Positions 5,706 to 48,377 of a stretch of 51,516 bases of DNA are shown here, piece by piece. The DNA comes from an uncultured Chloroflexales bacterium (GTDB lineage Bacteria; Chloroflexota; Chloroflexia; Chloroflexales; Chloroflexaceae). The DNA lies in assembly GCA_937918935.1 (NCBI GenBank), contig CAKZSI010000046.1, positions 1 through 51,516 of the forward strand, given 5' to 3'. Position 1 is the stretch's first letter; each line of letters begins with the position of its first letter. The notes under the pieces are model-generated. The model worked only from the letters and a program-made list of their open reading frames with translations, was not told the origin of the DNA and did no database searches. A program made the position numbers and the translations under genes.

Positions 5706-5782
5706 TGGTACCCCCAGCGGGATTCGAACCCGCGATCTTCACCTTGAAAGGGTGACGTCCTAGGCCGCTAGACTATGGGGGC
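5706..5782 (-). tRNA. tRNA-Glu (UUC)
   Basis: Read on the minus strand it folds as a full cloverleaf: acceptor GCCCCCA/TGGGGGT, anticodon stem TCACC/GGTGA with loop CTTTCAA giving anticodon TTC, T-arm GCGGG-TTCGAAT-CCCGC, and an encoded CCA (5706-5708). Anticodon UUC reads glutamate codons. Confidence 0.96.
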
Positions 5783-7991: not shown

Positions 7992-8447
7992 TCAGGCAGG
8001 AACCTGAGGCAGCACAGATTTCCCCCCTTCCTCCATCCGGCGCAAGGTTTCCATTGCCTCACCCTCAATGATCTGCGTAAAGCGATCATCGCGCAGGTTC
8101 AGCAGGCGCGCCGCCAACCAGGCCAGCGAAAAGGTCGGCACGGTCTGCGTGAAGGGCAGCAGGGCCTCCAGCGCGGCCTTGTTGCGTAATGCCCGCAGGC
8201 CCAGGCGATCGAGGATCACCCAGCTCACCGGCGCGGCGAAGATGTCCAGTCCGAAGTCAAGCAGGTCGAGCAACACCATCAGCAGCAGCGGCACATGGTG
8301 CATGGTGGCGAAGAAGCCTGCCTTCGCGGGAACGTTAAGGCGCTTGACGCTGCGCCATATCAGCGCCAGACCCACACTGGCGATAGTCAGCGCCACCATC
8401 ATCGCTATCAGCAACCCCGTCACGACGCTTCCCAGATGTTCGAGCAT
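7992..8447 (-). CDS. Hypothetical membrane protein
   Basis: 151 residues. Two long hydrophobic regions (about 7-32 and 50-78) indicate 2-4 membrane spans; the C-terminal third is soluble and helical ('RDDRFTQIIEGEAMETLRRMEEGGK'). I place the start at ATG 8447 with GGAG upstream; the open frame runs on to 8804 only through a module B repeat and so is not trusted. It is upstream-adjacent to the YggT-like gene on the same strand, so the two may be co-transcribed. Function unknown. Confidence 0.65.
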   Translation of the reverse strand: MLEHLGSVVTGLLIAMMVALTIASVGLALIWRSVKRLNVPAKAGFFATMHHVPLLLMVLLDLLDFGLDIFAAPVSWVILDRLGLRALRNKAALEALLPFTQTVPTFSLAWLAARLLNLRDDRFTQIIEGEAMETLRRMEEGGKSVLPQVPA

Positions 8448-11268: not shown

Positions 11269-11688
11269 ATGGTAGTTCACCGCTTCCTGCATCCACCGCG
11301 GGCCGTCCTGGTTGCCGGTCTGGCACTGATGTGCGCCGCCTGTGTTCCCACTCCACCCGCAGCCACCCTTCCAACCCTGCCGGCGATCCTCGACATTACC
11401 CCCGCGCCGACCCTCGACGTGGATGCGACGGCCACGACCCTCGCCTCGCTAGAACCCCCCACGCCCACCCCCGCGGTGCTCTACACCGTCCAGCCTGGCG
11501 ACACCCTCAGCACCATCGCCGAGCGCTTCAATACCACGGTTGACGAACTGGTGGCCGCCAACGGCCTGACTGACCCTGACGCCCTGCAGACGGGGCAAAC
11601 GCTGTTGATCCCTTCGCTGCTGCGGACGCCGGTGGTCGGTTCACCGGCGCCGTTGGGTACGCCGACCCCTACCCTCGCTACGCCCTGA
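11269..11688 (+). CDS. LysM-domain lipoprotein
   Basis: 139 residues. A signal sequence ends in a lipobox (LMCAAC, Cys about 25), so it is a predicted membrane-anchored lipoprotein. Residues 26-70 are a Thr/Pro-rich, low-complexity spacer. Residues about 71-115 are one LysM domain ('YTVQPGDTLSTIAERFNTTVDELVAANGL...LQTGQTLLIP'), which binds peptidoglycan N-acetylglucosamine. The tail is again Thr/Pro-rich. It probably links membrane and cell wall or is an orphan wall-binding module. The ATG at 11269 has no clear ribosome site. Confidence 0.85.
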   Translation: MVVHRFLHPPRAVLVAGLALMCAACVPTPPAATLPTLPAILDITPAPTLDVDATATTLASLEPPTPTPAVLYTVQPGDTLSTIAERFNTTVDELVAANGLTDPDALQTGQTLLIPSLLRTPVVGSPAPLGTPTPTLATP

Positions 11689-11830: not shown

Positions 11831-11859
11831 TTGACACGCATCTGTTCCTTCGTTATAGT
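11831..11859 (+). promoter_or_regulatory. Consensus promoter of a short transcript
   Basis: TTGACA (11831-11836), 17-nt spacer, TATAGT (11854-11859). Predicted start is near 11866. No annotated gene follows on this strand before 13245. Confidence 0.75.
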
Positions 11860-11918
11860 ACCAGTGTTGGCTGTTCCCCAACCAATCAAGCCGTCCAGGC
11901 GCGAAGGAGGTGATGCCC

Positions 11919-11966
11919 ATGAACGATAGTAAGCGTATGGGCGTCGCCGCTGGTGAGGCCCGCTAG
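11919..11966 (+). CDS. Micro-ORF, 15 residues
   Basis: Predicted peptide MNDSKRMGVAAGEAR, too short for gene finders. Its ribosome site (11904-11914, AAGGAGGTGAT) matches the whole anti-Shine-Dalgarno of 16S rRNA, and the GGAGG core is 8 nt before the ATG, which is ideal spacing. An in-frame ATG two codons upstream (11913) would overlap the site and is less likely. The frame ends in a stem-loop arm. With no downstream gene on this strand it is not an attenuator leader. Peptide function unknown; the exceptional initiation signal is the main argument that it is translated. Confidence 0.45.
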   Translation: MNDSKRMGVAAGEAR

Positions 11967-11998
11967 GTCTTACCGAACCGGCGACCCCGCATCCTGCG

Positions 11999-12025
11999 AA
12001 ACGCCCCTGCTCAGCAGGGGCGTTT
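11999..12025. terminator. Perfect hairpin terminator
   Basis: AAACGCCCCTGC (11999-12010), loop TCA, and its complement ending GCGTTT (12014-12025). It has a short T-run on both strands, so it may end both the short plus-strand RNA and the minus-strand methyltransferase transcript. Confidence 0.7.
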
Positions 12026-12113: not shown

Positions 12114-12863
12114 TCAGGAAGGGCGAATGGCTTCGTAGACGACGCGCGGGGCATCGGGGGGCGCCAGTTCCCAGGACGGCGCACGGCGCGCGATGAGGCG
12201 CAACCCTGCGCCAGCGAGGGCGTCCAGAACCTCCACATCACTCCAGGCTCGCTCAACGTGATGCTCCTCCCCGCGTCGCCAGCGTCCACCCTCATACATG
12301 AACCAGACCACGCGTCCCTGGGCCAGACGCGCTGTGGCGTCGTAGGCGAGCCGGTGGTAGACGAGGAGACCGTTGGCGTCATAGACGACCTGATCCAGCC
12401 CTTCGCCCCATGTGGCAAACTCGTGCTCAGTGTTGAGATCGAAGATCAGGCGTCCGCCGGGACGCAGCAGGCGCGTCGCGTTGCCGATGACGAGTGCCAG
12501 ATCGCCCGTGCCGGTGAGGTAGTTCAAGCTATCGTAGAGGCAGGTGATCAGGTCAAACGACGCTGGCGCAAGCGTCTCGCCCACGGGCAGGCGCCGGATG
12601 TCGGCGGCGAGCCAGGTGACGGGTAGATCGCGGGCGCGGGCCCGAGCAATGACGAGCATGGCCTCTGAGCGATCAACGCCCACCGTTGCCGCGCCGCTGG
12701 CGGCCAGGACCAGGGTCGCCGCACCGGCGCCGCAGGCCAGGTCGAGGACCCGTTCAGGCGGGACGGGCAGGGCGGCGAGGATGCGGCGCGCGAGCGCCTC
12801 GGCGAAGGCGCCCTGGCCAATGGCGTCGTAGATGGGAGCGTAGCCAGCATAGATATCGGACAT
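12114..12863 (-). CDS. Class I SAM-dependent methyltransferase
   Basis: 249 residues. Begins 'YAGYAPIYDAIGQGAFAEAL', typical of small-molecule methyltransferases. Motif I 'VLDLACGAGAATLVLA' near 38-53 binds S-adenosylmethionine; the acidic end of strand 2 is in 'VGVDRSEAML'; 'ITCLYDSLNYL' and 'LRPGGRLIFDLN' follow as motifs II and III. The substrate cannot be told from sequence. The ATG at 12863 lacks a strong ribosome site; a GTG at 12896 is a possible alternative. It lies immediately downstream of the tRNA-Arg terminator on the same strand. Confidence 0.85.
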   Translation of the reverse strand: MSDIYAGYAPIYDAIGQGAFAEALARRILAALPVPPERVLDLACGAGAATLVLAASGAATVGVDRSEAMLVIARARARDLPVTWLAADIRRLPVGETLAPASFDLITCLYDSLNYLTGTGDLALVIGNATRLLRPGGRLIFDLNTEHEFATWGEGLDQVVYDANGLLVYHRLAYDATARLAQGRVVWFMYEGGRWRRGEEHHVERAWSDVEVLDALAGAGLRLIARRAPSWELAPPDAPRVVYEAIRPS

Positions 12864-12900
12864 GGACGTGGGGCGGTGCGCCGGGCCGGTATGCACGATG

Positions 12901-12931: not shown

Positions 12932-13008
12932 TGGCGACCCCGGCGCGACTCGAACGCGCGACCTTTTCCTCCGCAGGGAAACGCTCTAATCCACTGAGCT
13001 ACGGGGTC
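12932..13008 (-). tRNA. tRNA-Arg (GCG)
   Basis: Full cloverleaf on the minus strand: acceptor GACCCCG/CGGGGTC, anticodon stem TTTCC/GGAAA, loop CTGCGGA with anticodon GCG, T-arm GCGCG-TTCGAGT-CGCGC, encoded CCA (12932-12934). Anticodon GCG reads the Arg codon CGC. C35, G36 and the D-loop A fit arginine identity. Most bacteria use an ACG (inosine) tRNA for this box. Confidence 0.92.
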
Positions 13009-13057: not shown

Positions 13058-13244
13058 CCGGGCCGATCGGGGGATCAGGGCAGGGCTGTGGCCCGCAGTT
13101 CAGCGGATGCCGTTCGTTGCACCCGAAGCCACCCCTGCGGCCGGCGCCTTGTGCCTTGCCCCTCATAGCGGTAAAATACGTCACGTCTCGCCACCGGTGC
13201 GCATGCGACCTGCCGGCGGCGATCGCTCAAGAAACGGTTGCCAC

Positions 13245-48231: not shown

Positions 48232-48264
48232 CGCCAGACAACCGAATGCCACGGTTCGTGTGGC

Positions 48265-48363
48265 CATGCTAGGGGTGCCAGAAGAGTCTGGCTGAGAGTG
48301 CGGCCCGATTGATGCCGCTAACCCTTGGAACCTGACCTGGATCATGCCAGCGTAGGGAAGCAT
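48265..48363 (+). promoter_or_regulatory. TPP riboswitch (THI element)
   Basis: Contains the conserved blocks AGGGGTGCC, GGCTGAGAG, ACCCTTGGAACCTGA, GGATCATGCCAGCGTAGGGAA, and a closing P1 stem ATGCT (48266-48270) with AGCAT (48359-48363). Binds thiamine pyrophosphate and precedes thiEML. Confidence 0.95.
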
Positions 48364-48377
48364 CGGCAGTTGCCTTC

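Follow-up and report, generated by a model that had tools for sequence, protein, structure and literature searches.

A putative stand-alone RNA with a short open frame and competing helices, shared by Chloroflexota and Cyanobacteria

Attenuator leaders carry a short leader open reading frame (ORF) preceded by a Shine-Dalgarno (SD) sequence and ending in a stop codon between mutually exclusive segments, followed by a terminator, and they yield a short free RNA. In erm-type translational leaders, translation of a micro-ORF selects between alternative helices, one of which masks a ribosome-binding site (RBS). Dual-function small RNAs such as SgrS/SgrT and RNAIII have their own promoter and combine a structured RNA with a short ORF, and in type I toxin mRNAs such as hok an exchangeable internal helix sequesters the SD. 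The Sinorhizobium trp leader, peTrpL, is an attenuator leader with trans-acting products (PMC7298713), and Chloroflexi-1 RNA (RF01698) is a reported structured RNA candidate from Chloroflexus aggregans (PMC2864571).

Here we describe a unit at positions 11831 to 12025 (+ strand) of a 51,516-nt stretch of DNA from an uncultured Chloroflexales bacterium; this whole stretch is referred to as the window. Like attenuator leaders, the unit has an SD-led short ORF that ends between exclusive segments and a terminator-like hairpin; unlike them, it has no conserved downstream operon, its terminator, judged by eye, appears to lie outside the exclusive pairing, and its SD is an 11-nt complement of the anti-SD. 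In contrast to the RBS masked in erm-type leaders, the one masked here is that of the micro-ORF itself, and no second ORF is conserved after it. A promoter (48 of 50 loci), a terminator-like hairpin (41 of 50), an ORF, and helices are shared with SgrS/SgrT and RNAIII, expression of the element being inferred, but its ORF lies within the conserved helices, its peptide is weakly conserved, and no target has been identified. As in hok, an internal helix that can be exchanged is predicted to sequester the SD; unlike hok, the element does not, as judged by eye, encode a hydrophobic toxin peptide. With regard to Chloroflexi-1 RNA, no Rfam family was found at threshold here, and the sequences were not compared directly.

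A sequence-only reading of the window had proposed a transcription unit composed of a TTGACA-17-TATAGT promoter, an extreme SD, an ATG opening a 15-codon frame, internal stems, and a 12-bp hairpin. Each of these parts is present where it had been placed, and the unit as now annotated comprises the following.

11831 to 11859, + strand: sigma-70-type promoter, TTGACA-17-TATAGT, 11/12 consensus
11890 to 11900, + strand: small 5' hairpin GCCGTCCAGGC, with the motif CCRNNYAGG
11904 to 11914, + strand: SD AAGGAGGTGAT, an 11-nt complement of the 16S rRNA 3' end, in invariant or near-invariant columns of alignment A1 (described below)
11909 to 11920, + strand: segment 1, GGTGATGCCCAT, taking in the 3' half of the SD and reaching two bases into the AUG; its partner is segment 2
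11919 to 11966, + strand: micro-ORF MNDSKRMGVAAGEAR, 15 codons plus TAG (11964 to 11966)
11937 to 11949, + strand: segment 2, ATGGGCGTCGCCG, within the micro-ORF; its partner is segment 1 or segment 3
11952 to 11974, + strand: inner hairpin GGTGAGGCC/GGTCTTACC, from the minimum-energy fold, without a covariation count
11979 to 11988, + strand: segment 3, CGGCGACCCC, beyond the micro-ORF stop; its partner is segment 2
11999 to 12025, + strand: terminator-like hairpin with a 12-bp stem, a TCA loop, and no separate T run

The stem reported earlier is formed by GTCGCCG (11943 to 11949) and CGGCGAC (11979 to 11985) and belongs to helix 2:3. A second helix, which had been missed, competes with it: in helix 1:2, GGTGATGCCCAT (11909 to 11920) pairs with ATGGGCGTCGCC (11937 to 11948) through 12 pairs, including two G-U pairs, and masks half of the SD together with two start-codon bases. 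The 3' arm of the inner hairpin begins at the final base of the micro-ORF stop codon, and the only T stretch of the 12-bp hairpin consists of the last three bases of its stem. Promoter and hairpin together predict a unit about 160 nt long, for which there are no expression data. None of 200 dinucleotide shuffles was predicted to fold as well as its RNA (z of -5.4). Between positions 8000 and 16000, promoter-like sites numbered 2, with 1.4 expected from shuffles, so the promoter by itself is no proof; terminator-like sites in the promoter and terminator scan numbered 6, with 4.6 expected. With counts this near to chance, the scan was rejected as stand-alone evidence, being useless without conservation.

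Of 61 related genomes searched by BLASTN, its own among them, 49 carry the unit. An 18-mer core, with at most one mismatch, occurred in 44 of 301 genomes of the phylum, compared to 0 of 301 for the reversed pattern, and this conservation places the unit above chance. A covariance model, R1, was built from the 49 sequences of alignment A1, all from the order, and matched 89 of 399 phylum genomes (at least 90% complete) at an E value of 0.01 or better: 74 of 77 within the class and 15 of 322 elsewhere in the phylum. No random-genome control stands behind these counts. The figure of 74 of 77 covers genomes labeled as own, genus, family, order, or class and assumes that 290 unlisted, nonmatching genomes are more distant; "order" and "class" are kinship labels throughout, and equating them with Chloroflexales and Chloroflexia is inferred. 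Some matches were weak, with 10 of the 15 outside the class at 22.9 to 31.1 bits and one of the 74 (G021) at 26.4 bits. The element is mostly single copy, with two strong copies in each of two genomes (G043, contigs C51 and C81; G045, contigs C4 and C7). R1 also yielded 20 further loci, found through the model and not through the exact 18-mer, 19 of them outside the order; two of the 20 (L248 and L257) repeat earlier contigs.

The sequence-only reading had named the lack of a transcript, together with the absence of promoter, frame, and stems from close relatives, as grounds for refutation; when the comparison with relatives was run, all three were found to be kept. At 48 of the 50 homologous loci the promoter reached a score of at least 10/12, compared to 0.8% of shuffles, and the -35 box lay 65 to 79 nt 5' of the SD in the 49 loci scoring 9 or more. 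CCRNNYAGG was present in 46 of 50 order loci and in 0.7% of shuffles, and a crude scan found a terminator-like hairpin in 41 of 50. Terminator stems, compared by eye, differ freely between genera while segments 1 to 3 stay. Two Chloroflexi metagenome-assembled genomes (L144 and L145) have the SD core and a frame, MDVSCKSRAASVRSR, with a different stem, GGCCGC.../...GCGGCC, and possibly represent a diverged variant.

The SD had been described as extreme. The 16S gene of this genome (L240, found by Rfam) ends in GGATCACCTCCTT, from which it follows that the SD is an 11-nt complement of the anti-SD, and that part of the description stands. The string AAGGAGGTGAT occurs once in the window, both strands considered; the 4.6-Mb genome has four copies, counting the present one and leaving out the antisense of the 16S end. 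Two of the other copies precede ordinary ORFs (L239, RidA-like by eye, and L241), so the SD is less special than it had seemed; the remaining copy (L242) has no obvious start after it. This bears on one alternative explanation, that the RNA is directed at the ribosome, its 11- to 12-nt anti-SD complement holding 30S subunits or titrating the anti-SD and its short frame releasing them. The length of the complement and its near invariance in A1 speak for such a role, as does the strong consensus promoter of 48 of 50 loci. Against it, an 11-mer found before two ordinary ORFs is no mark of the element alone, the SD is predicted to be mostly paired, and some relatives have a weaker SD (AAGGGGG in 3 and TAGGAGG in 1 of the 20 further loci). 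We regard this explanation as distinctly unlikely.

Outside the phylum, an exact scan of genome contigs with the 18-mer gave at least 117 stretches, at least 72 of which are cyanobacterial loci of one type. These are lower bounds, and the absence of a taxon among the matches carries no meaning; by arithmetic with equal base frequencies, chance alone would give about 7.5 exact matches in 257 Gb. Judging by title, the cyanobacterial loci among the matches listed come from Nostocales, Oscillatoriales, Xenococcaceae, Acaryochloris, Leptolyngbya, and others, and their frames span 23 to 25 codons (for example, MIESSKRMGHQVAVSRLCAGAVL). For Nostoc sp. PCC 7120, the sequence suggests an RNA of about 290 nt. 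The filter for this type passed 73 loci, including L118 (Desulfovibrio), which lacks the motif; the other 72 carry cyanobacterial titles. A cyanobacterial locus with a 35-codon frame (L132) falls outside the filter.

Having served as the search key, the 18-mer is no evidence of kinship at these loci, and other features were tested. Among the matches listed, CCRNNYAGG was found in 69 of 72 cyanobacterial loci and in 0 of 22 background 18-mer sites, the latter excluding two duplicates (L199 and L206) and the ambiguous L130, which lacks the motif. R1 gave 31.5 to 46.5 bits for 28 cyanobacterial loci (27 of the 72 plus L132), 26.1 to 62.9 bits for 16 other loci, and 11.8 to 24.3 bits for 22 of 23 background loci with the identical 18-mer. 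The exception in the background, L130 (Dehalococcoidia), reached 30.3 bits, above the 26.1 bits of L145, a Chloroflexi locus counted as family. Among the matches listed, the crude terminator scan picked up a hairpin at 18 of the 73 loci passed by the cyanobacterial filter and at 3 of the 22 background loci; in the cyanobacterial loci read by eye, a clear terminator hairpin is visible. The expectation that the Chloroflexota and Cyanobacteria elements form one family was thus met, at the level of sequence comparison, by features beyond the search key (R1 scores and CCRNNYAGG).

Matches to the 18-mer in Bacillota, Pseudomonadota, and archaea were treated as background. In two of them, from Paenibacillus and Lachnospiraceae (L057, 2001 to 2018, - strand; L060, 2993 to 3010, - strand), the identical 18-nt core precedes peptides of 24 to 27 residues that are hydrophobic and by eye resemble small holin-like toxins. 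These sites lend something to the notion that the unit is an mRNA resembling those of type I toxins, its SD being sequestered, as do the strong SD, the sequestering helix, and the micro-ORF; the peptides of the element family, on the other hand, look hydrophilic by eye, and we consider a toxin extremely improbable. A Bdellovibrionales locus (L107, 6375 to 6489, - strand) has the SD core, a 13-codon frame MNNSYEMRITLNG, a GCGCATCACC segment, and a T-rich terminator, and it scored 33.8 bits with R1. It possibly reflects a third phylum or horizontal transfer and is a lead only. Viral contigs were rejected as carriers: 10 exact 18-mer stretches occurred on them, none with the layout by eye, and the 8 that were scored fell in the background range. 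A plasmid collection gave no match to the window element or to a cyanobacterial one.

The surroundings of the unit in the window are as follows.

11269 to 11688, + strand: LysM-type ORF (named by eye), upstream of the element
12114 to 12896, - strand: convergent ORF, methyltransferase-like by eye, downstream
12932 to 13008, - strand: tRNA-Arg(gcg), identified by ARAGORN
From 13107, + strand: next downstream ORF on that strand

The window also holds a tRNA-Glu(ttc) at 5706 to 5782 (- strand; ARAGORN) and a TPP riboswitch at 48261 to 48375 (+ strand; 74 bits, Rfam). Downstream of the element, two + strand ORFs of at least 80 amino acids overlap the convergent ORF at 12114 to 12896 and are apparently its shadows, and the next is the ORF at 13107; the earlier reading had seen no gene on the same strand for more than 1 kb. 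The upstream LysM gene is kept in 31 of 50 loci, including three genomes of family f3 of the order (L046, L047, and L049); 46 of the 50 have at least 700 nt of upstream sequence. It was not found within 1.5 kb in five loci of the genus Chloroflexus. As a functional partner in these loci the LysM gene was rejected, its retention being read as vertical synteny.

We considered whether the unit might be a cis-acting leader, an attenuator of a downstream gene that has been orphaned in the order. Its anatomy is similar, with a leader ORF that ends between exclusive segments, and 40 cyanobacterial loci among the matches listed have, no more than 3.5 kb downstream, a gene that by eye is pterin-4a-carbinolamine-dehydratase-like, at one locus (L067) about 10 nt beyond the T run of the terminator; regulation of this gene is untested. 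Also among the matches listed, porin-like genes lie downstream in 45 cyanobacterial loci and psbD-like genes upstream in 23 (both by eye, -2.5 to +3.5 kb), and 66 of the 72 cyanobacterial loci have at least 1 kb of downstream sequence. Within the order, no downstream gene was common to more than 8 of 50 loci (25 clusters listed; frames overlapping the element excluded), and an attenuator for a downstream gene was rejected there on this ground. The same result supports the earlier view that the transcription unit is an orphan and no attenuator leader; that reading had offered a micro-peptide, a regulatory RNA, and a ribosome-interacting RNA as options. By eye, the genes that come next in other classes resemble a luciferase-type oxidoreductase, a PIG-L deacetylase, recN, or chorismate mutase, and no downstream gene was common across lineages. 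That downstream genes vary by lineage and are often convergent, and that terminator stems, as judged by eye, vary freely between genera while segments 1 to 3 are kept, weighs against a leader, which we hold to be very unlikely.

Evidence for the two helices came from covariation. In the 49 rows of A1, 93.9% of the cells of helix 2:3 were paired, and 6 of its 10 pairs had changed on both sides. Across the whole counted structure, A1 contained 56 double-change cells, compared to 17.3 in shuffles, and 93.4% of cells were paired, compared to 26 to 48% when the structure was slid; on one of five covariation measures, further pair types, 80 of 500 shuffles reached the A1 value. These shuffles leave relatedness in place, so the figures are not probabilities. 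Helix 1:2 was also paired in 93.4% of A1 cells, its outer two pairs being unpaired in 20 and 13 of 49 rows. Segment 1 was near invariant and segment 2 varied mainly by G-U-compatible changes; helix 1:2 has little two-sided covariation because segment 1, as part of the 18-mer search key, hardly varies. RNAalifold on the order alignment recovered helix 2:3 and not helix 1:2.

For Cyanobacteria, alignment A2 held 44 of 71 prepared sequences, near-duplicates having been removed by hand and L072 and L118 having no recognized segment 3. There, helix 2:3 takes the form GGGTC..CAGGTTG/CAACCTG..GACCC, with 8 pairs changed on both sides among the matches listed, and A2 had 64 double-change cells, compared to 20.6 in shuffles. 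RNAalifold on A2 gave 32 pairs, 13 of them with two-sided changes, and included five pairs of the 1:2 hairpin; helix 1:2 itself was 88.9% paired without two-sided changes. The GTCGCCG/CGGCGAC stem claimed from the window alone is thus conserved with compensatory changes in both the order and the Cyanobacteria. At the 20 further loci, segment 1 itself differs in several with pairing kept (at L244, GCCCGGA with TCCGGGC), and the outer pairs of helix 1:2 are lost in others (L245 and L254). Segment 3 forms 9 or 10 of 10 pairs without a bulge in 14 of them and 7 or 8 of 10 in 6; with one bulged base allowed, all 20 reach 9 pairs, as do 14.6% of shuffles.

The frame is open throughout. It spans 12 to 24 codons in 67 of 67 unique sequences (from 79 loci; the ATG of this set is part of the search key) and 14 to 16 codons in all 20 further loci. 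From start codon to segment 2 the distance is 2 mod 3 (17, 20, 23, or 26 nt) in 59 of 63 sequences, L107 included, and 1 mod 3 (28 or 31 nt) in 4, all Ardenticatenia-type. This count excludes four loci in which segment 2 is unclear, two of which (L046 and L047) suit phase 2 by eye while L144 and L145 read phase 1 with 7 of 10 pairs. All 71 cyanobacterial loci among the matches listed at which it could be measured have a distance of 23 or 26 nt (not found at L072), and among the further loci phase 2 holds in 19 and phase 1 in 1; at 9 of these 20, the AUG has moved 3 to 4 nt relative to the SD and still lies 20 nt from segment 2. The stop-to-segment-3 and segment-2-to-segment-3 distances occur in all three phases. 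The stop precedes the script-assigned segment 3 in 62 of 67 sequences and in 20 of 20 further loci, the exceptions being L004 and L029, whose frames run past the usual stop, and L046, L047, and L107, whose segment 3 is doubtful. At several loci GGAGG recurs within the frame, a little ahead of the stop (for example, at L105 and L262), possibly as a pause site or as part of the inner hairpin.

An alternative explanation would be a micro-protein gene, with the short peptide as its product and helices that do no more than tune translation of that peptide. Besides the frame being open in every sequence examined, two observations favor it. In Cyanobacteria, in-frame synonymous changes were enriched (0.336, compared to 0.210 and 0.132), and certain residues recur, SK or KR before segment 2 and E-V-x-R/K near the end of the frame, the latter in both reading frames of segment 2. 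The E-V-x-R/K signature, a pattern in predicted peptides, is the best argument for a peptide role. In the order, however, a codon-position comparison detected no in-frame synonymous excess and hence no selection on the peptide by this measure (0.353, compared to 0.364 and 0.229; 0.278, compared to 0.377 and 0.500), and between the two phyla peptide length and most residues differ. Moreover, segment 2 is kept though it is read in two frames: at the phase-1 loci its RNA string encodes WASPE, WALPE, or GASPE and not GIT or GIA, which for the four Ardenticatenia-type loci indicates that the RNA and not the protein is conserved. A micro-protein is in our judgment rather unlikely. The kept frame phase, the two-frame reading of segment 2, and the synonymous fractions together indicate selection for translatability; selection on the peptide is at most weak in the order and present to some degree in Cyanobacteria.

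Conserved stems had earlier been set against conserved codons as a comparison to make. Both sides are upheld, in that the stems carry compensatory changes and the frame stays open, but the amino acids are only weakly conserved. This combination makes a pure micro-peptide less likely and RNA folding that depends on ribosome loading more likely.

When mutually exclusive 1:2 and 2:3 folds were enforced in thermodynamic predictions, the median difference over 47 RNAs was 0.4 kcal/mol, with 24 of 47 favoring 2:3; for the window's own RNA the 1:2 fold was better by 5.3 kcal/mol. The modeled energies are compatible with bistability over the 47 RNAs, the window RNA itself preferring 1:2. In equilibrium folding, the mean unpaired fraction of the SD was 0.34 with segment 3, 0.25 without it, and 0.23 with segment 3 shuffled. 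Relative to RNAs without segment 3, SD exposure rose by more than 0.05 in 27 of 47 and AUG exposure in 19 of 47; SD exposure was higher with the native than with the shuffled segment 3 in 32 of 47. The equilibrium-folding and energy sets exclude L046, L047, and L049. Equilibrium models thus show little change in SD exposure with segment 3 and no clean switch. In the window's own RNA the two helices can in part form side by side, which leaves room for a static fold.

No known family accounts for the element. Rfam 15 gave no family at the gathering threshold for this locus or for 14 loci with the element, where its only hit was a tRNA elsewhere in L052. With E values up to 10 (280 nt), three subthreshold matches appeared, all at the terminator hairpin, and a cyanobacterial element had no match at E values up to 1. 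A tmRNA is not indicated, ARAGORN finding only two tRNAs in the window. In the open-access literature we found no description of the element; subscription papers, supplements, and preprints lay outside this coverage, so an earlier report is possible, especially in tables of cyanobacterial dRNA-seq data. The string AGGAGGTGATGCCC occurred in that literature under unrelated, mostly medical titles. The accessible portion of PMC8632094 does not mention Chloroflexus, Roseiflexus, Anabaena, or Nostoc, and that of PMC4734099 has no match to the terms queried.

We conclude that an uncatalogued family of conserved RNAs very likely exists and that this unit is a putative member. What the alignments demonstrate, in the absence of any experiment, is conservation of the promoter, the long SD, the AUG, a frame open through segment 2, and the exclusive segments. 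To explain these features, we propose that the unit is a stand-alone RNA gene of a family common to Chloroflexota and Cyanobacteria whose folding depends on translation of the frame more than on the peptide, a reading to which we give close to an even chance. Segment 2 can pair either with the SD and AUG region (segment 1) or with segment 3. A 30S subunit gaining the SD would open helix 1:2, and translation would clear segment 2; if both inferences hold, ribosome traffic would decide which helix exists. The RNA would then exist in two forms, translated and not translated. One of them, as yet unidentified, may act elsewhere, with a second RNA, a protein, or the ribosome as its target. Selection would mainly keep the act of translation and not the peptide sequence.

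A more ambitious reading, which we offer as speculation and think rather improbable, is that the element, present in nearly all sampled genomes of the class and widespread in Cyanobacteria, is an ancient sensor of ribosome state: the full anti-SD complement of this dedicated RNA would measure free mature 30S subunits, set one of two folds, and thereby regulate translation or gene expression globally. If that were so, it would represent a regulator that senses by translating a frame whose product is under little constraint.

No Rfam family matches the element, and usual gene finding would pass over so short a frame. Its presence in 74 of 77 sampled genomes of the class, together with its being recognizable in a second phylum, suggests that the RNA likely does something important. 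If the proposed dependence of folding on translation is correct, the element would be a stand-alone RNA whose signal is the act of translating and not the product.
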